Origin: Gemmatimonadota bacterium
GTDB taxonomy: Bacteria; Gemmatimonadota; Gemmatimonadetes; Gemmatimonadales; Gemmatimonadaceae
Direction: 5' to 3'
DNA: 64,000 nt
Assembly: GCA_028287305.1 (NCBI GenBank)
Contig: JAQBPX010000002.1
Coordinates: 1-64,000, forward strand
The first letter of the stretch is position 1. Each line of letters begins with the position of its first letter. The position numbers were made by a program, and so were the translations under genes. Positions 19,240-48,048 of this stretch are shown here, piece by piece. A model generated the notes under the pieces. It saw only the letters and a program-made list of their open reading frames with translations, ran no database searches and was not told the DNA's origin.

Positions 19240-20853
19240 ATGCCGAACTACCGCATCCTGGTGACTGACGAGGTCGATCCCGAGGGGGTCGAGCTCCTGA
19301 TGGCAGAGCCACAGTTCCAGGTGGACGAGCTGCCCACGATGCCGAAGGAGGAGCTGCTCGAGAAGATCGGCGACTACGACGCATTCGTGGGGCGCAGCGC
19401 CACGCGCATCACGCCGGAGCTGCTGGCGCGCGCGAAGAAGCTGCGCGTGGTGGGCCGGGCAGGCGTGGGAGTGGACAACATTGCAATGGATACCGCGACG
19501 TCGCTTGGCGTCGCGGTGATCAATGCCCCGGCGGGCAACACCATCGCCGTGGCGGAGCTGTTCTTTGGCGTGGTGATCGGGATACTCCGTCACCTGCCGG
19601 AGGCGGCGCAGTCGATGAAGGAAGGGCGCTGGGACCGCTCGGCGCTGCTGGGCACTGAGCTCAAGGGCAAGACGCTCGGCATCGTCGGCGTGGGTCGCAT
19701 CGGCTCCGAGATCGCGGTGCGTGCGCACGCATTCGGGATGACGGTGGTGGGCTACGATCCCTACATCGCCGAAGAGCGCTTCCGCGCGCTTCGCGTGCGC
19801 CGCACCGACTCGCTGGACGCGCTGCTCGAGGAAGCGGACATCGTCACGGTGCACACTCCGCTGAGCGATGAGACCAGGGGGCTGCTCGGCCGCAAGGAGC
19901 TGGCGCGGTTGCGAGCCGACTCGATCGTGGCCAACCTCGCGCGCGGCGGCATCATAGAGGAGGAGGCGCTGCGCGAAGCGCTGTCGAGCGGCCACCTGCG
20001 CGGCGCTGCGATCGACGTGTACGACAAGGAGCCGGCGGCCGCGGACCACCCGCTGCGCACGATGGAGGGCGTGCTGCTCACGCCGCACCTCGGCGCTTCC
20101 ACGGAGGAGGCGCAGCGCAACGTGGCGGTCGACGTCTGCATCGCGGTGCGCGATGCGCTGCTGCACGGCGAGCTGTCGCGCTCCCTCAACGTGGCCGCGA
20201 GCGACGGGCAGTGGAGCGAGCTGCGCTCGGCGCTGCAACTCACGCAGCGCTCGGCATCCATGGCCCGCGCGATCCTGGCCGACCAGGGGATGCGCGAGGT
20301 GCGACGCCTCTCGATGCGCTGCGGACCCGCGCTCGCCGGTGGGGCCGAAGTGCTCCTCTCGGCGGCCGCGATCGGCGTTCTCGAGCAGGTAGTCGAAGCG
20401 GAGCGACTCAACCTCATCAACGCCCGCTCGCTGGCCGAGGGGCGCGGCATCGAGCTCTCATGCTCGGTGAGCGACCAGCTGGGAAATGACTACGCGGTGG
20501 AAGTGTCGCTGAGCGGCGGCATGCGCGAGCTCGCGGTGGGCGGCGTGGCGGCGCCGGGTGGAACGCCGGCGCGGTTCACGCGCATCGGCAGCTTTCGCGT
20601 GGACGTCGCGCCGCGGCAGACGCTGCTCGTGCTCACCAACCACGACGTCCCCGGCGTGATCGGTCGCGTTGGCACCGTGCTGGGCGACGCCGGCGTGAAC
20701 ATCGCCGAGTATCACCAGGCGCGGCTGGCGCAGGGCGGGGAAGCGCTCGCGGCCGTCTCGGTGGATGGAGAGGTCGACGCGAAGCTCCGCACCGCATTGC
20801 TGGCGCTGCCCGACGTGCTCACCGCAACCGTCGTCAACTTCCGCGGCGCGTGA
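19240..20853 (+). CDS. serA: D-3-phosphoglycerate dehydrogenase
   Basis: First step of serine synthesis: oxidises 3-phosphoglycerate to 3-phosphohydroxypyruvate with NAD. A 537-residue long-form (type 1) enzyme. The substrate/NAD domains show GRAGVGVDNI, the Rossmann motif GIVGVGRIGSEIA, the catalytic Arg in NLARGG, Glu in DVYDKEP and His in LTPHLGAST. An allosteric intervening domain and a C-terminal ACT domain follow (LTNHDVPGVIGRVGTVLGDA), the usual site of serine feedback. The ATG at 19240 lies 4 nt after the flotillin stop, and the stop overlaps the next gene by 4 nt. It heads a serA-dehydrogenase-serB-serC unit. Confidence 0.95.
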   Translation: MPNYRILVTDEVDPEGVELLMAEPQFQVDELPTMPKEELLEKIGDYDAFVGRSATRITPELLARAKKLRVVGRAGVGVDNIAMDTATSLGVAVINAPAGNTIAVAELFFGVVIGILRHLPEAAQSMKEGRWDRSALLGTELKGKTLGIVGVGRIGSEIAVRAHAFGMTVVGYDPYIAEERFRALRVRRTDSLDALLEEADIVTVHTPLSDETRGLLGRKELARLRADSIVANLARGGIIEEEALREALSSGHLRGAAIDVYDKEPAAADHPLRTMEGVLLTPHLGASTEEAQRNVAVDVCIAVRDALLHGELSRSLNVAASDGQWSELRSALQLTQRSASMARAILADQGMREVRRLSMRCGPALAGGAEVLLSAAAIGVLEQVVEAERLNLINARSLAEGRGIELSCSVSDQLGNDYAVEVSLSGGMRELAVGGVAAPGGTPARFTRIGSFRVDVAPRQTLLVLTNHDVPGVIGRVGTVLGDAGVNIAEYHQARLAQGGEALAAVSVDGEVDAKLRTALLALPDVLTATVVNFRGA

Positions 20854-41026: not shown

Positions 41027-41416
41027 ATGATGGACGAGACCCGCAAGAAGGAATTGAAGGAGAAGCTGACCGCCGAGCAGTACCAGGTGGCCTGTGAGCA
41101 CGGCACGGAGCGCCCCTTTACGGGGCAGTTCTGGAATTCGAAGGAGGATGGGACGTACGTGTGCGTCGCGTGCGGCACCGAGCTCTTCGACTCGAACACG
41201 AAGTTCGACTCGGGCACCGGCTGGCCGAGCTTCTACGATGTGCTGAACGCGAAGAACGTGGAGACCACCGAGGATCGCACGTACGGCATGCGCCGAGTGG
41301 AGTGCCATTGCGCGAACTGCAAGGCGCACCTGGGGCACGTGTTCGAGGATGGGCCGAACCCGACGGGGCTGCGGTACTGCATCAACTCGGCTTCTTTGGA
41401 GTTTGAGAAGCGGTAG
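41027..41416 (+). CDS. msrB: Peptide-methionine (R)-S-oxide reductase
   Basis: Repairs methionine-R-sulfoxide in proteins. A 129-residue MsrB with KLTAEQYQVACEHGTERPF, structural-zinc pairs CVACG and CANCKAH, the active-site region DSGTGWPSFYDV, and catalytic Cys in LRYCINSASLEF. GGAGAG lies 9 nt before the first of two adjacent ATGs (41027 and 41030). Its stop is only 3 nt from the stop of the convergent TrlF-like gene, so the left boundary of the low-GC insert falls exactly here. Confidence 0.95.
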   Translation: MMDETRKKELKEKLTAEQYQVACEHGTERPFTGQFWNSKEDGTYVCVACGTELFDSNTKFDSGTGWPSFYDVLNAKNVETTEDRTYGMRRVECHCANCKAHLGHVFEDGPNPTGLRYCINSASLEFEKR

Positions 41417-41419
41417 GGG

Positions 41420-44092
41420 CTAGGAGATCTTCATTCCATATTTTCGCGTCTTGAGGGAAAAGGAGGCCGTACCCCCTTCCAGATGTTGGATTACTGCGTC
41501 CTTCACGACGGGTCTGTCCATTGCGCCATGGGTGGCGAGCAGTGCTTGGGATGCGGAGGCAGTCAGGACGTGATACCGATCAGTGTCCGATGCGACGGCG
41601 ACGGTCGGATTGTGCGTGGTGAGGATAAATTGGCGATTCGACTTTCGTTCGCGAATTTGTAGAGTTACGTCCTGATAGACCGAGGTAATGTCTAGTGCAT
41701 CCTCAGGCTGATCGATTACGATCGGCCGGGTGCCTTCCGCCAGCGCGATGATGAGCAGTGCCGTACACTTCTGCCCAATCGACAGCTGTGCGAGGTCGTA
41801 GAAGTTACCGTCGTCCTTTCTGTAGCGAATGACTGGCCCGTCGTGCACAATGTCCTCATGCTCCAATGCTAGAATGCGCCTGCGGTCCGCGTGCGCTACT
41901 AGATGCCCGACAAGCTTATTGGCGAGCGCCGTAGTGATGGAGGCGCGCTTCGCTAGCGTTGATCCATCGTTTTGCAGCACCAGAGCGACCAACTCGGCAG
42001 GCAAGACGGTGTCACAGACCGACCGGATAGTTGCATCCTGCAAATGGGAACCGGTCTTCAGGACTGTCAATTCGTCGAGATAGTCGCTTCGATTAGCGCT
42101 GGCTGTGATTTGCAAATCGAGCCTGCCGCCCGAGGCGAGCGTAAGCTCTTCGTACTTTCGCCGTCGTAACTCAAATCGACGCGAACTCTCGCTCGCTAGC
42201 TCGACCAACAACTGATCGCGTGCGGTCTTCAATTTCGGGACGCCGTCAATCTGTTTCTGAAGCGTATGCACGGCCTTCCGAAGCGCAGTTCGCTCCTTTT
42301 CCAGGCGATCCTTCTGGGTCAGCAGCGCCGTCTTATCGCCTCCCTGCGCCCGAACCCACTCCTCGTATTGTTTCCTTTTTTTCGCTACGACATCATCCCA
42401 GCTCAGAGCAGCAGAACGGGCCTTCTTTGCCAGTTTAGTGACCGCCGATTCAAGAACCTTAGCGTTTGCCTTCAGCTTCTTCGCATCAGCATCGAGATCC
42501 GAGAGCAACGTTTGTAGTTCTGAATCCGATTCGAAGTCCTTCGGAAGCTTCGGAAGTGAGCACCCACCGATGCTTTCGCTGATCCCTTCAACTGCCTCTT
42601 CGATCTCCTCGACGAATCGGTCGATCTTTGTAAAGCAGTCGGTCTTTGGCTTCAGCTGTTGCAGAACGAGATGCTCCGCGGAAGCAAGCGACTTGTCCAG
42701 TTGCGCGATCTTCTCCTCGTTTGTGGCGAGCGCGCGCTGCCGCCCGTCGATTTCGTCCTCCGCGAGGGAGCAGGCCGCCACGTTTACGTCCAGAGTTCGA
42801 AGCTCCGTTCTTATGGCGCTCACGCGCGCGTCAATTGATGCGAGGTCGAGTAGGCCGTCGATCAGCCTCAGCTGCGCACTATTGTCTTTCGCAATCTCTA
42901 GCGCTTCTGTTTGGCTGTACGCAAGAATTGGGAAAAGTTCACCAAGGTTTCCTTTGAAGGAATTGCCAGACTCCCTGTAGAAGACTTTCATCGGATTGCT
43001 CGCGCCATCGTACCGCCGTTCCACGATCAATACTTGGTCAGCTTCCAGTTGGATCGTGGCCGTGACGATGCCACCAGTACCCAACTGTGCGTTCAACTTC
43101 GACTCCATATCCTGCTCAATGGTTTCAACAGGCGATGGCTGATCGAGAGCGAATCGAATCAACTCAACTAGAAGAGATTTCCCAACGCCCTTTCCGCCGA
43201 TGATCGAATTGAGACCCTCGTGAAATTCAAACTCAATCTTCGCAAGAAAGCCTTGTGATGCTGATATCGCGAGAATACGAGGGTACAGTCGGTCAGGAAC
43301 TAGATCGGAGCCTTCATCCGTAATTATCCGGACGTCTGGATCAAGAAAGCACTGCTTTAAGCCCTCGTGAGTGCACCCATCCATCTTGAACCAGCTGAAT
43401 CGCGCTCCTACTCCATCAATGGAATGCCCATCGTCAGTAATCGGAGTGCGGTTATCAGACGCCCGATAGTAGGCGAGCCGACGCCGGAAATGCGGATCTT
43501 CTCCGCTTAACAGCGGCGAAGTCTTTTTTATGTGTTTGATCTCAACCGCAGCGAGATACGGCGAGTTCATTGTCCGGATGCGCTGCTGGCCGGACATGTC
43601 ATTCATCACGCCCTTGGAGGAATCCGCGTGAGCGAGAATCGCTAGCGCCCCCTCCTCCGCGATGATTTGGAGGGCATCCTCCGGGCTTTTGGGCGAAACT
43701 GCATCCAGACTGCCGTACTGGTCTGAGGGGAAATCCATCTTCGCCAGGAGGTGCTCGATGGACTTCGTTGTCGCCTCTAGCGGAAAGAGGGCAAGAAGGT
43801 GAACTCCCGCCTTGCCTCCTGCGACTGTGAGCTCGACGCCTGGGAAAACGGTCAGACCAGTTCCCTTCGCGGCAGCTTTGAGCTTGTCGACCCAAGCTCC
43901 TGTATTGTGATCCGTGACCGCTATTCCGTGAATGCCACGGGCTATTGTGCGCGATACAAACTCCTCCGCAGAAATAGTCCCGACGTAATCGGCTGAAGCT
44001 GGCGTGTGAACGTGGAGGTCGAGCTTGAGCCACCTCAAGCCGTGATTCTGCTGAGTCATAGAACGCTGGTTGAGAGGATTGGGGCTCGGCAC
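41420..44092 (-). CDS. TrlF-like PHP-domain/SMC-like ATPase (defence-associated)
   Basis: An 890-residue protein. The N-terminal PHP phosphoesterase domain (about 20-260) has LDLHVHTPASAD, AVTDHN and ILAHADSSKG. An ABC/SMC-type ATPase has Walker A GGKGVGKS (299-306), a coiled-coil middle (about 430-680), signature LSIGQ (770-774), Walker B IVIDQPEDALD (791-802) and switch TTHN (826-829). All catalytic motifs are intact. This combination matches the family known to me as TrlF, found in defence islands. A second start at 44059 (MTQQNHG) is possible; neither start has a ribosome site. Base composition is clearly lower in GC than neighbours. It is divergent from the TIR-like gene. Confidence 0.85.
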   Translation of the reverse strand: MPSPNPLNQRSMTQQNHGLRWLKLDLHVHTPASADYVGTISAEEFVSRTIARGIHGIAVTDHNTGAWVDKLKAAAKGTGLTVFPGVELTVAGGKAGVHLLALFPLEATTKSIEHLLAKMDFPSDQYGSLDAVSPKSPEDALQIIAEEGALAILAHADSSKGVMNDMSGQQRIRTMNSPYLAAVEIKHIKKTSPLLSGEDPHFRRRLAYYRASDNRTPITDDGHSIDGVGARFSWFKMDGCTHEGLKQCFLDPDVRIITDEGSDLVPDRLYPRILAISASQGFLAKIEFEFHEGLNSIIGGKGVGKSLLVELIRFALDQPSPVETIEQDMESKLNAQLGTGGIVTATIQLEADQVLIVERRYDGASNPMKVFYRESGNSFKGNLGELFPILAYSQTEALEIAKDNSAQLRLIDGLLDLASIDARVSAIRTELRTLDVNVAACSLAEDEIDGRQRALATNEEKIAQLDKSLASAEHLVLQQLKPKTDCFTKIDRFVEEIEEAVEGISESIGGCSLPKLPKDFESDSELQTLLSDLDADAKKLKANAKVLESAVTKLAKKARSAALSWDDVVAKKRKQYEEWVRAQGGDKTALLTQKDRLEKERTALRKAVHTLQKQIDGVPKLKTARDQLLVELASESSRRFELRRRKYEELTLASGGRLDLQITASANRSDYLDELTVLKTGSHLQDATIRSVCDTVLPAELVALVLQNDGSTLAKRASITTALANKLVGHLVAHADRRRILALEHEDIVHDGPVIRYRKDDGNFYDLAQLSIGQKCTALLIIALAEGTRPIVIDQPEDALDITSVYQDVTLQIRERKSNRQFILTTHNPTVAVASDTDRYHVLTASASQALLATHGAMDRPVVKDAVIQHLEGGTASFSLKTRKYGMKIS

Positions 44093-44193
44093 ACTAAGCT
44101 GCCTCGCCTAAACCGTCTCCGGAAGTCACGCAGCGTCTCACAGGATTGGCGATTGACCACTCCCAATGGCCATGCTGGCTTGAGCCCTTGTGG

Positions 44194-44207
44194 ATGATTG
44201 GAATCAT
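44194..44207. promoter_or_regulatory. Perfect palindrome ATGATTGGAATCAT in the divergent island promoter region
   Basis: A 6-bp perfect inverted repeat with a 2-nt centre lies inside the 247-nt gap between the TrlF-like and TIR-like genes. TTGTGG and TATCTA flank it at about 18-nt spacing on the plus strand, so it could be an operator at the TIR-gene promoter. It is short and could be chance. Nothing else is recognisable in the gap. Confidence 0.25.
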
Positions 44208-44339
44208 GGGGTATCTATGGTCACCCTCTGAGGCGGTCTGCGCTCTGCCGAGACTTCGTCACGCATCGGGGTCACGTTGGCGGATCGAGACTCGCCACGC
44301 GAGCCTGGCACCGGACCACGAACAACCGAGAAACACGGG

Positions 44340-45257
44340 ATGCACGTCCACGTATTCTTTTCTTGGCAGTCAGACAATGCAGGAAGGCACGGAAATGTGA
44401 TTGGGCGAGCCCTCGCTCGGGCGACCGACTGCGTGGCTTCGAATGAATCCATTGCATTTCGTCCAACGGTCGATCAGGACACGCGCGGTGTTCCGGGTAC
44501 GCCTTCGATGGTATCGGCGATCCTTCGGAAGATCGATCTTTGTAGCGTGTTTGTGGCTGACGTCACCCTCACATTCGAGGGCATCGAGAGCAGTCGAAAG
44601 TCACCAAACCCCAACGTGCTTCTCGAGCTTGGGTATGCGTTGCGCCGACTGGGCCCAGAAAGAGTTCTCATTGTTCTGGACACTGCTTTTGGTGCGCCCG
44701 AGCAACTGCCGTTCGACCTTCGAGGAAGCAGAGCAATCACATACAACAGCGTCGACGATCCGCAGATAGTGGAAGACCGCCTGTTCGATGAGTTCACGGC
44801 TGCCCTCCGATTAATCCTGAGCAACGCAGGTCCGCCGGCAGACATCGCACCGCCGGTTCATCTGGAGCTTGAGTTCACAAAGGAGCGTCTCGAGCAGGAG
44901 CGTCACGAATATCGACTTCATGTAAGTGTGACAAACCGTGGCAACGAACTGCTTCGCGATTGGGCAGTCGAGGTACGTTTTCCTGGACCACTCCTACACC
45001 CCAATCGCCAGTATCCCGTCGTAGGCAACCACCTTCCTGATCGGCGAGTGGTGATGCGACAGATAGAAGCAAACCATAGCGGTCCGATATACCCAGGCGA
45101 GAAGAAGGAACTGATGGGAATCGACTACATCATGACTCGCGAGTCGCGCGAAGAAGCAGATATGTTGTTTGCGCAAAAAGTTGAAGCATTCTTCTTCGCT
45201 GAGGGAGCGCGCCTAGCCTCAGCTTTTCGATTGGTCCGTGAACTGCAGGTATTCTAG
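44340..45257 (+). CDS. TIR-like (CAP12/Pycsar-type) protein with C-terminal beta-sandwich domain
   Basis: A 305-residue protein; the ATG at 44340 starts directly with the TIR strand MHVHVFFSWQSDN. Further TIR-like features are KIDLCSVFVADVT and NPNVLLELGYALRRLG, with a candidate catalytic Glu at 97, then LPFDLRGSRAITY. TIR domains of this type in defence systems cleave NAD or bind nucleotide signals. Residues about 155-305 look like a beta-sandwich (VHLELEFTKERLEQE, YRLHVSVTNRG, WAVEVRFPGPLLHP, YPGEKKELMGIDYIM), possibly a sensing or binding part. It is followed 114 nt later by the QxK gene on the same strand. Function is inferred. Confidence 0.75.
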   Translation: MHVHVFFSWQSDNAGRHGNVIGRALARATDCVASNESIAFRPTVDQDTRGVPGTPSMVSAILRKIDLCSVFVADVTLTFEGIESSRKSPNPNVLLELGYALRRLGPERVLIVLDTAFGAPEQLPFDLRGSRAITYNSVDDPQIVEDRLFDEFTAALRLILSNAGPPADIAPPVHLELEFTKERLEQERHEYRLHVSVTNRGNELLRDWAVEVRFPGPLLHPNRQYPVVGNHLPDRRVVMRQIEANHSGPIYPGEKKELMGIDYIMTRESREEADMLFAQKVEAFFFAEGARLASAFRLVRELQVF

Positions 45258-45371
45258 CCACGAGTTGCATCGGATCCGAACCATGCGGCGAAGCACGAGC
45301 AGGCAGGGAGTCGAACGAGCAATTCCCCAATACCATTGTCCGAGCGGCTCGGGAGCAAGATCAGGAGTGGA

Positions 45372-46016
45372 ATGAGACTTTCGGAGAAGAGCATCGAACT
45401 CAACTTTTGCGCGCAGCTTCAGTCCCGGCTTGGGAAGCGCATCTTGTGGTTCGGCCTCACTCAAGCACAGGAGAAGAAAGCTGGCTTTGACGCATACACG
45501 CGTGTAGGTGGGCGCCTTCTCATCTTGCAATTCAAGGCGTCCGCGTATGTATTGAAGAATGGCGCACGTCGGTTCCACGCGCCGCATCACCAGCTCGACG
45601 CACTAAGAAAATCGGGGCGTAGGCGACAGAACAGCGTCTTCTATGTATTTCCCGGAATTGGCACCTCGGTGGAGTTGGCCCGCGATCCGGACTTGGTGAA
45701 GCAATGCCAATTTCTTGATGCCGGTAGCATCCCCGATTCGGTGAAGCAACCGACGAGGCCCGACGGCAAGCCGCGCAAGAATAAAGTTCATCACGTTGAT
45801 GTTTCGGCAGGAATAGCAGTAATTCATTCGGAACCGGTAACAGCGCGTCTCGTCGGCGCGCGACAACTTCTTGAATCGCCGAGTCGTGGATCGCGCGATG
45901 ACATGACGCTTGAAATCGGACCCATCACAGCCGCACTTGAAGGCGAATACGAATGGTTCGAGGATGCTACTCGAACGATTCGCGGCGCTGCATTGGCCGC
46001 GATAATTCTAGATTAG
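45372..46016 (+). CDS. Unrecognised island protein with PD-(D/E)xK-like pattern (QxK variant)
   Basis: A 214-residue soluble protein. AGGAG 5 nt before the ATG at 45372 decides the start over a TTG at 45336. The N-terminus shows a helix with E9 (SEKSIELNFCAQLQ), then GFDAYTRVGGRLLILQFKAS, giving D40 and Q53-x-K55. This is the order E...D...QxK of Mrr-like nucleases. The middle has HAPHHQLDALRKSGRRRQNS, and strands such as NSVFYVFPGIG and HHVDVSAGIAVIHS follow. I do not recognise the family, and the nuclease reading is by eye only. Lower GC and its place beside the TIR-like gene suggest a shared defence unit. Confidence 0.4.
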   Translation: MRLSEKSIELNFCAQLQSRLGKRILWFGLTQAQEKKAGFDAYTRVGGRLLILQFKASAYVLKNGARRFHAPHHQLDALRKSGRRRQNSVFYVFPGIGTSVELARDPDLVKQCQFLDAGSIPDSVKQPTRPDGKPRKNKVHHVDVSAGIAVIHSEPVTARLVGARQLLESPSRGSRDDMTLEIGPITAALEGEYEWFEDATRTIRGAALAAIILD

Positions 46017-46157
46017 AAATGAGATGGGGATGTCGGCGGTCTTGTATTCGCATAGTTACGGAGCTGGAACGACTACTTCGTAACTTGAGGAGTCTGCGTC
46101 CCGCGAGAAGTGGTACGTTGGATTGTGTCGACCGCCGGCGAGTGAGTGTTCGCCCAC

Positions 46158-47015
46158 TCAAACGGCGCTTAGTGCAAACCGTGTAATCTCCGGCCGAACA
46201 TTGAACCTTACCCGCTGCAAATGCCCCAGCCCGCGGTTGATGTAAAGCCGCCTTCCCGTCCCCAGCACCTCCACCTCCCCCGCCACATACCGCCGGTTCT
46301 TCACCGGTAGCAACGGCGGCGGCAGGAACGGCGGCTTGCACTGCCCGCCATGTGTGTGCCCTGCCAGCACCCACCCTCGATAGTCGCCCCACTGCAGTTC
46401 GTCCTGGGCATCGGGGTTGTGACACAGTACGATCGCGGCATCACCCGAGCGCTGCGCCAGCGCCCGCATCGGGTCAGCGGTCCCGCTCCACAGGTCATCC
46501 GTCCCGACGAAGTCGAGCCCCTGCACGTTCACCGACTCGTTGCGCAGCACGTGCACGCCCGCGTGCTCCGCGATGCCCTGCACTCGCCCCGCGACCTTCA
46601 TGTCGCGCCAATATAACCCGTAGTCGTGGTTGCCGAGCACGCCGATCGTCGCCAGGCGGCCCCGCGGCATGTGCCGCATCACGAGCTTCAACTGCTGCCA
46701 CTGCTCTTCCTGGCGGTTGCCGCGGTGCGTGAAGAAGTCGCCCGTGATCACCAGGATGTCCGGTGCGAGCGCGGCCACGCGCGCGAAGCTCTCGATGATG
46801 TACGAGTCGTCCACGTCGGGGCCGATGTGGATGTCGCTCAGCTGGATCATGGTCTTGCCGACCAGCGACGCCGGCAGGTTTTCAATCGGCAGGTCGCGCT
46901 CCACCACCTTGACCCAGTGCGGCTCCACGCGCCAGGTGTATCCGCCGAGCGCAGCGGCGCCCGCGAAGGCGCCAAGCACTGCGCGTCCAACAAAATCGCG
47001 TCGCGAGATCGACAT
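46158..47015 (-). CDS. Tat-exported metallophosphoesterase
   Basis: A 285-residue binuclear-metal phosphoesterase. The ATG at 47015 opens a twin-arginine signal (SISRRDFVGRAVLGAFAG), so it is preferred to the upstream start. Motifs are QLSDIHIG, VITGDFFTHRG, VLGNHDYG, CHNPDA and LAGHTHGGQ, as in the YkuE/YaeI group thought to act on lipid or envelope phosphates. It follows the barrel-SnoaL gene by 4 nt and is probably co-transcribed. Its 3' end faces the island across 141 nt, where a hairpin of AGTTACGGAG with CTTCGTAACT lies at 46057-46086. Confidence 0.9.
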   Translation of the reverse strand: MSISRRDFVGRAVLGAFAGAAALGGYTWRVEPHWVKVVERDLPIENLPASLVGKTMIQLSDIHIGPDVDDSYIIESFARVAALAPDILVITGDFFTHRGNRQEEQWQQLKLVMRHMPRGRLATIGVLGNHDYGLYWRDMKVAGRVQGIAEHAGVHVLRNESVNVQGLDFVGTDDLWSGTADPMRALAQRSGDAAIVLCHNPDAQDELQWGDYRGWVLAGHTHGGQCKPPFLPPPLLPVKNRRYVAGEVEVLGTGRRLYINRGLGHLQRVRFNVRPEITRFALSAV

Positions 47016-47019
47016 CAGG

Positions 47020-48048
47020 TCAGGGCAGCGCCACAGATTTGCATCCCACTCCTTCACACGCGAGCGCGACGAACACTTCGCTGCGAATGAGCCAGCGTCC
47101 ATCTCGGCGCACCCACTGGGCCGAGTAGCGACCGGTGATAGTGCGCGGCCCGTTGGGCGAGCCGATGTTCGCGCGCCACGTTCCCGTCTCGAAGGCGAGT
47201 GGCCACACGGCGCTCACGTCGACGCCGGTCGTCTCACGCGTGTACACCACGCTCGTGTCGCTGCGATCGGTTCCCACGATGCGCAGGTACTCCGCGCGCC
47301 CCACACCGAGCGCGCCCAGGCCGCGCCGAATGGTCACGTCATCCGTCCAGTAGCTCGCGGTCGCGGCGGTGTCGCCGCGCGCCATCGCATCGTTTTGCGC
47401 GAGGCGCGCGCGTCGTATTGCATCGACGTCAGTCGTCAGGCTCACTGCAGGCTCAACGGGCACGCTTCCTACGTTGGTGCTGTTGACGAACCGGAGCGTC
47501 ACGCCGAATCGGAGCAGAAGCAGCCCGAATCCGTCGGTCGACGGACGGGAATCGGCGCGTGCCTCGAAGGTCGTTCCCACACGACTGCCGCGAGCGCCGA
47601 TCGCGATCGAGGCATGCGGACTGAACGATCCTCCGAGGTCGCTGCGGCTCACGTTCATGTACGAGAATCCACCACCGAGTGCGACGAGGCTGCCCTCGCC
47701 CCTGAACCAGCGATGCTGGTAGGTCGCGCCGAATGCGCTGGTGCTCGGTGCGGGGCCGGTGCATCCCTGGGCAACCGAACCGGATGCCGGAACGACGCAG
47801 GGCGTATCCTTGCGAACGGTTGCGCTCCATTCGAGCTCGAACGCTCCCGGCGCATTCGCTCCACTGGAAAAGCCGATTCCGGCGCGACCGCCGAGTGTCA
47901 GCTGTCCATCGACTCCGGCGCCGCTCACGTACACGGGGCCCGCGGAGATGAACGGATAGACCTCCTGCGCCTCGAGCGACGCTGCCGCTCCAGTGAGGAG
48001 CACAGCCATCATCGCGAACGCACGCCGCGCTCGGCTTCCATGTGTCAT
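47020..48048 (-). CDS. Exported beta-barrel-like protein fused to a SnoaL/DUF4440 domain
   Basis: A 342-residue protein. The ATG at 48048 has GGAG 8 nt upstream and a signal peptide (RRAFAMMAVLLTGAAASLEA). Residues about 35-190 are alternating strands with aromatic ends (VYPFISAGPVYVSGAG, AFGATYQHRWFRGEGSLVAL, GFGLLLLRFGVTLRF), as in small outer-membrane barrels. Residues about 210-335 form an NTF2-like domain of DUF4440/SnoaL type (ARLAQNDAMARGDTAATASY, WTDDVTIRRG, GRYSAQWVRRDGRWLIRSEV). The combination is uncommon, and I cannot say whether the NTF2-like part faces the periplasm. Function unknown. Confidence 0.65.
   Translation of the reverse strand: MTHGSRARRAFAMMAVLLTGAAASLEAQEVYPFISAGPVYVSGAGVDGQLTLGGRAGIGFSSGANAPGAFELEWSATVRKDTPCVVPASGSVAQGCTGPAPSTSAFGATYQHRWFRGEGSLVALGGGFSYMNVSRSDLGGSFSPHASIAIGARGSRVGTTFEARADSRPSTDGFGLLLLRFGVTLRFVNSTNVGSVPVEPAVSLTTDVDAIRRARLAQNDAMARGDTAATASYWTDDVTIRRGLGALGVGRAEYLRIVGTDRSDTSVVYTRETTGVDVSAVWPLAFETGTWRANIGSPNGPRTITGRYSAQWVRRDGRWLIRSEVFVALACEGVGCKSVALP

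Follow-up and report, generated by a model that had tools for sequence, protein, structure and literature searches.

A low-GC insert with TrlF, TIR-like and orphan genes in a Gemmatimonadota genome, probably an acquired islet of independent defence genes

Genes of two kinds used against phage, a TrlF-type gene and a TIR-like gene, stand side by side with an orphan gene in a stretch of low GC content in a Gemmatimonadota bacterium. An earlier note on this DNA had read the locus as a defence island whose three genes act together. Is it one defence system, a set of separate ones, or a group of resident genes with unusual composition? The analysis of the window, by which we mean the whole 64-kb stretch of DNA examined, favors an acquired small defence islet of independent one-gene systems over one three-gene system, with a probability of roughly two in three.

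The insert and its borders

The locus comprises the following features.

Flank before the insert: msrB (PF01641) and a creatininase (PF02633), from profile matches
41417-46157, no strand: the low-GC insert as a whole, delimited by GC composition
41420-44059, minus strand: TrlF-family protein of about 879 aa, PHP plus SMC/ABC-like ATPase (NF045780, PF02811, SMC/AAA matches, motifs)
44060-44339: intergenic region of 280 bp separating TrlF from the divergent TIR gene, from the gene map
44340-45257, plus strand: TIR-like putative NADase of 305 aa with a C-terminal beta-sandwich (PF10137, CBASS TIR effector profiles, AlphaFold2 model)
45372-46016, plus strand: orphan protein of 214 aa with a GFD...LQFK (D...QxK) nuclease-like pattern (codon-position GC, AGGAG)
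46158-47102: metallophosphoesterase bordering the insert (PF00149)

The lower-GC insert of three genes described in the earlier note is borne out by composition and by count, all three genes being intact. GC content is 0.554 in the insert (55.4%) versus 0.679 (67.9%) in the remainder of the window, which makes the insert the minimum among all 4.7-kb segments of the 64 kb (mean 0.668, sd 0.032). At third codon positions the three insert genes have a GC content of about 0.57-0.62, computed for TrlF and the orphan after re-phasing to their true frames, versus 0.83-0.95 in the flanking genes, and rows with at most 30 G+C of 60 make up 26% of the insert versus 1.2% of the remaining window. Two row counts given previously are exact (30 of 60 G+C for 43141-43200 and 42 of 60 for 19921-19980). 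The borders are msrB and a metallophosphoesterase, as named in the earlier note, and housekeeping genes lie directly at both ends. Since msrB ends at 41416 and the TrlF stop codon begins at 41420, the gap between them is 3 nt, as had been claimed.

Composition and patchy distribution together indicate that the insert was likely acquired horizontally. Among 395 Gemmatimonadota genomes, TrlF scores above cut-off in 17 and the TIR gene is matched in five, while the orphan has no relative beyond one weak, chance-level fragment in genome G016; such patchiness is what would be expected of acquired genes. A protein query of 58 family or order relatives returned no full-length TrlF match, only partial PHP or ATPase matches. 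Could the genes instead be old residents, with a low GC owed to relaxed or special codon use? Consistent with this, no mobile-element gene is seen at the insert, no boundary repeat or recombinase was found there (only an 11-bp, chance-like direct match), and no empty site is available for comparison: the search yielded no second genome from the genus, and the adjacency of msrB and the metallophosphoesterase is not kept in any family relative found, as msrB is not the neighbor of the metallophosphoesterase in those that have it (G031, G010, G024) and no metallophosphoesterase adjoins the best msrB loci. The GC step of twelve points, however, falls exactly at the housekeeping boundaries, and the 58 family or order genomes hold no vertical relatives, which renders long residence most improbable.

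The three proteins

The first gene is, judged by its sequence, a true TrlF-family member. Its longest frame opens at GTG 44092; ATG 44059 is the more likely start. The product scores 392.6 bits against NCBIfam NF045780 over profile positions 2-944 (curated cut-off 350) and matches the PHP profile PF02811 as well as SMC/AAA profiles. In an alignment with three relatives from the phylum and a Gordonia plasmid copy, to which it is about 26-28% identical, the motifs DLHVHT, TDHN, PGVE, AHAD, DGH, GGKGVGKS, IGQK, VIDQPED and TTHN are present, so that the PHP metal-binding motifs and the Walker A, signature, Walker B and H-loop elements are intact. The intact TrlF-like PHP/SMC ATPase of the earlier note is therefore confirmed. 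The closest known systems, TrlF (NF045780) and Ppl (NF042955), share with it the fusion of PHP and SMC/ABC-like ATPase, the motifs, the length, the order of parts and the single-gene layout. It scores 267 bits against the Ppl model, far under the equivalog cut-off of 1000 (212 bits with the PADLOC Ppl model), and is for this reason assigned to TrlF as a relative of Ppl rather than to Ppl proper. Genes of the TrlF type were also found on many conjugative plasmids. Other Gemmatimonadota carry TrlF-profile matches that lack the PHP half (L060 1375-3399; L061 1495-3396 and L062 1474-3381, both on the minus strand); two ORFs come directly after the ATPase in L060 and L061, one repeat-like (about 370-380 aa) and one response-regulator-like, an arrangement that looks like a separate SMC-ATPase operon.

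For the second gene, whose coordinates are corrected here to 44340-45257, sequence profiles give matches only at the edge. PF10137 (gathering cut-off 24.7) scores 22.6 bits for the protein and 24.7 for the frame, over about residues 85-137 only, and the CBASS TIR effector profiles are similarly marginal; searching PDB sequences with a profile of the TIR family gave no real match. The claim of a TIR-like protein is upheld by structure prediction. An AlphaFold2 model built from a 37-sequence alignment (mean pLDDT 84.9) finds its best solved match in TIR-STING (7un8; Z 14.1, 2.4 A over 133 residues), followed by SPARTA TIR-APAZ and then by DNPH1-type nucleoside hydrolases, whose folds are related. 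Plain Foldseek placed GH3 glucosidases at the top; these were rejected for an rmsd of 17-19 A and a mismatch across two domains. The C-terminal domain of the model is a beta-sandwich.

All 37 aligned sequences keep N92, E96 and D126. The NADase site of SfSTING comprises S10, R78, N80, E84 and D110 (PMC9402430), which S8, N92, E96 and D126 of the window protein resemble in part (S10, N80, E84 and D110), with identical N-to-E spacing; the equivalence was set by spacing and neighborhood, not by superposition. The model thus predicts a TIR fold with a catalytic Glu and helper Asn and Asp, and the protein would act as a NADase. Among known effectors, CBASS Cap12 or TIR-STING (SfSTING) and the Pycsar TIR effectors (PF10137) share the fold, the N..E spacing and the conserved Asp, whereas the window protein has the C-terminal beta-sandwich in place of a recognized STING or other cyclic-nucleotide domain. 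No CD-NTase lies beside the gene, which is surrounded by TrlF, the orphan and housekeeping genes, so the locus does not qualify as CBASS. The bSEFIR proteins are likewise lone TIR-superfamily effectors with a C-terminal sensor, but the window protein itself gives no bSEFIR match and carries a different C-terminal domain.

For the third gene the most likely start is ATG 45372, which an AGGAG precedes by a few nucleotides; TTG 45336 offers an alternative beginning. Its GC by codon position resembles that of the TIR gene, and this composition together with the AGGAG suggests that it is a real gene. The earlier note's unrecognized protein with a nuclease-like QxK pattern is an apt description: QFK comes about 13 residues after GFD within the GFD...LQFK pattern, and Pfam, NCBIfam, PADLOC and PHROG return no match. 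PD-(D/E)XK nucleases of the Mrr-like D...QxK type share this arrangement; the likeness lies in a short sequence pattern and, unlike them, the orphan has no profile match. A single-sequence fold model (pLDDT 29) is too poor to show a fold. A nuclease nature is read from the short pattern, and the protein is best called a putative PD-(D/E)XK-like nuclease.

The collections searched gave no convincing relative of the orphan. The fragment in G016 was rejected, being weak and overlapping a PIN/VapC-like frame. No relatives were present in 50 TIR-bearing genomes, in plasmids or phages (the weak plasmid matches that were inspected were rejected), or in viral contigs even with degenerate patterns, which were drawn from an alignment including two hand-made variants and served solely to widen the search. 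Among 299 genomes from the phylum to which G400 belongs, one weak, chance-like match was the only result, and a search of genome contigs, which reached close relatives only, gave none.

The TIR family and the question of joint action

The TIR gene belongs to a large family. A collection scan recovered at least 438 relatives with the same N-domain, and the nearest relative comes from the taxonomic family to which the window belongs. The best 80 of these (L079-L158), from many phyla, share one TIR-like N-domain marked by WQSD and NPNVxxELG motifs, which Pfam matches only at cut-off. Clustering of the separable C-terminal parts of these best 80 of at least 438 relatives, along with the window's own, yielded 15 sequence clusters, of which eight are singletons, and hence at least seven recurring types. 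The cluster of the window protein has four members, namely the window, L079, L080 and L081, whereas in L082 the C-terminal part matches the bSEFIR profile. A domain like that of the window is also borne by a GGDEF protein in genome G323 (L069 7552-9186, minus strand; 32% over 141 residues), which is the behavior expected of a sensor module. The C-termini of this modular family look as swappable sensors would. Partial relatives sit on plasmids; in three sphingomonad plasmids (L071, L073, L075) a tyrosine or site-specific integrase gene follows them directly, an adjacency that suggests integrase-linked mobility.

Do the three genes of the insert act together? On such a reading TrlF would sense and cut, the TIR protein would kill the cell and the orphan would serve as an accessory nuclease. 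What speaks for this is adjacency: the genes are contiguous, share a common composition and flank a divergent 280-bp region that is presumed to hold promoters. Their distribution elsewhere points the other way. No searched genome has two of the genes side by side, and no credible TrlF was found in flanks of up to 8 kb around the best 80 of at least 438 TIR loci; in L141 a weak match of the SMC type lies about 7 kb away from the TIR gene. The full-length TIR relatives (L079, on the same contig as in G004, L080 and L081) stand alone among unrelated genes, and their genomes lack TrlF throughout. Conversely, no TIR gene is near the TrlF loci of the phylum, within flanks that mostly reached to about 1.5 kb. 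Four genomes (G090, G413, G433, G404) do hold both a TIR relative and a TrlF-profile match, but on separate contigs or beyond each other's range, and in two of the last three the TrlF-profile match is below cut-off. The joint action proposed in the earlier note, and the co-occurrence elsewhere on which it was to be checked, thus fail to find support; a single three-gene system is very unlikely, and the arrangement is probably neighborhood only. The kinship to defence genes stands, since TrlF and TIR proteins are both of kinds used against phage, and the "island" amounts to two defence-type genes and one orphan, three genes in all.

A narrower partnership is easier to entertain. The TIR gene and the orphan might form a two-gene operon of an effector with a nuclease or regulator, TrlF being an unrelated neighbor: they share a strand, a gap of 114 nt and a like composition, and a strong ribosome-binding site precedes the orphan. 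Three full-length TIR relatives nevertheless lack such a downstream gene, and an orphan without relatives leaves no conserved pairing to be seen, so this too is unlikely. It is a long shot that the orphan founds a new family of QxK nucleases, paired with a TIR NADase that bears an unrecognized beta-sandwich sensor and acquired beside TrlF.

How the islet may work and what it adds

Ppl is a single-gene anti-phage exonuclease that acts on ssDNA in the 3'-5' direction. The TrlF of the window most likely works like it; the mechanism is carried over from a relative, because the Ppl model is matched below its threshold (267 of 1000 bits). In the favored islet of independent systems, the SMC-like ATPase part of TrlF would sense a phage-associated state of DNA or nucleotides, and would then license the metal-dependent PHP exonuclease. 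The TIR protein would be a single-gene abortive-infection effector, in which the C-terminal beta-sandwich senses an infection cue, whereupon the TIR domains may oligomerize and hydrolyze NAD+. The orphan, downstream of the TIR gene and co-directional with it, may be a third system or an accessory to the TIR gene.

As a system the islet is ordinary, and it is of mild interest for its modular TIR family and its orphan. With it, the inventory of a little-studied phylum grows by a TrlF and a TIR effector, and the TIR family, with at least 438 relatives on varied C-terminal parts, would make a direct study of infection-sensor swapping possible.
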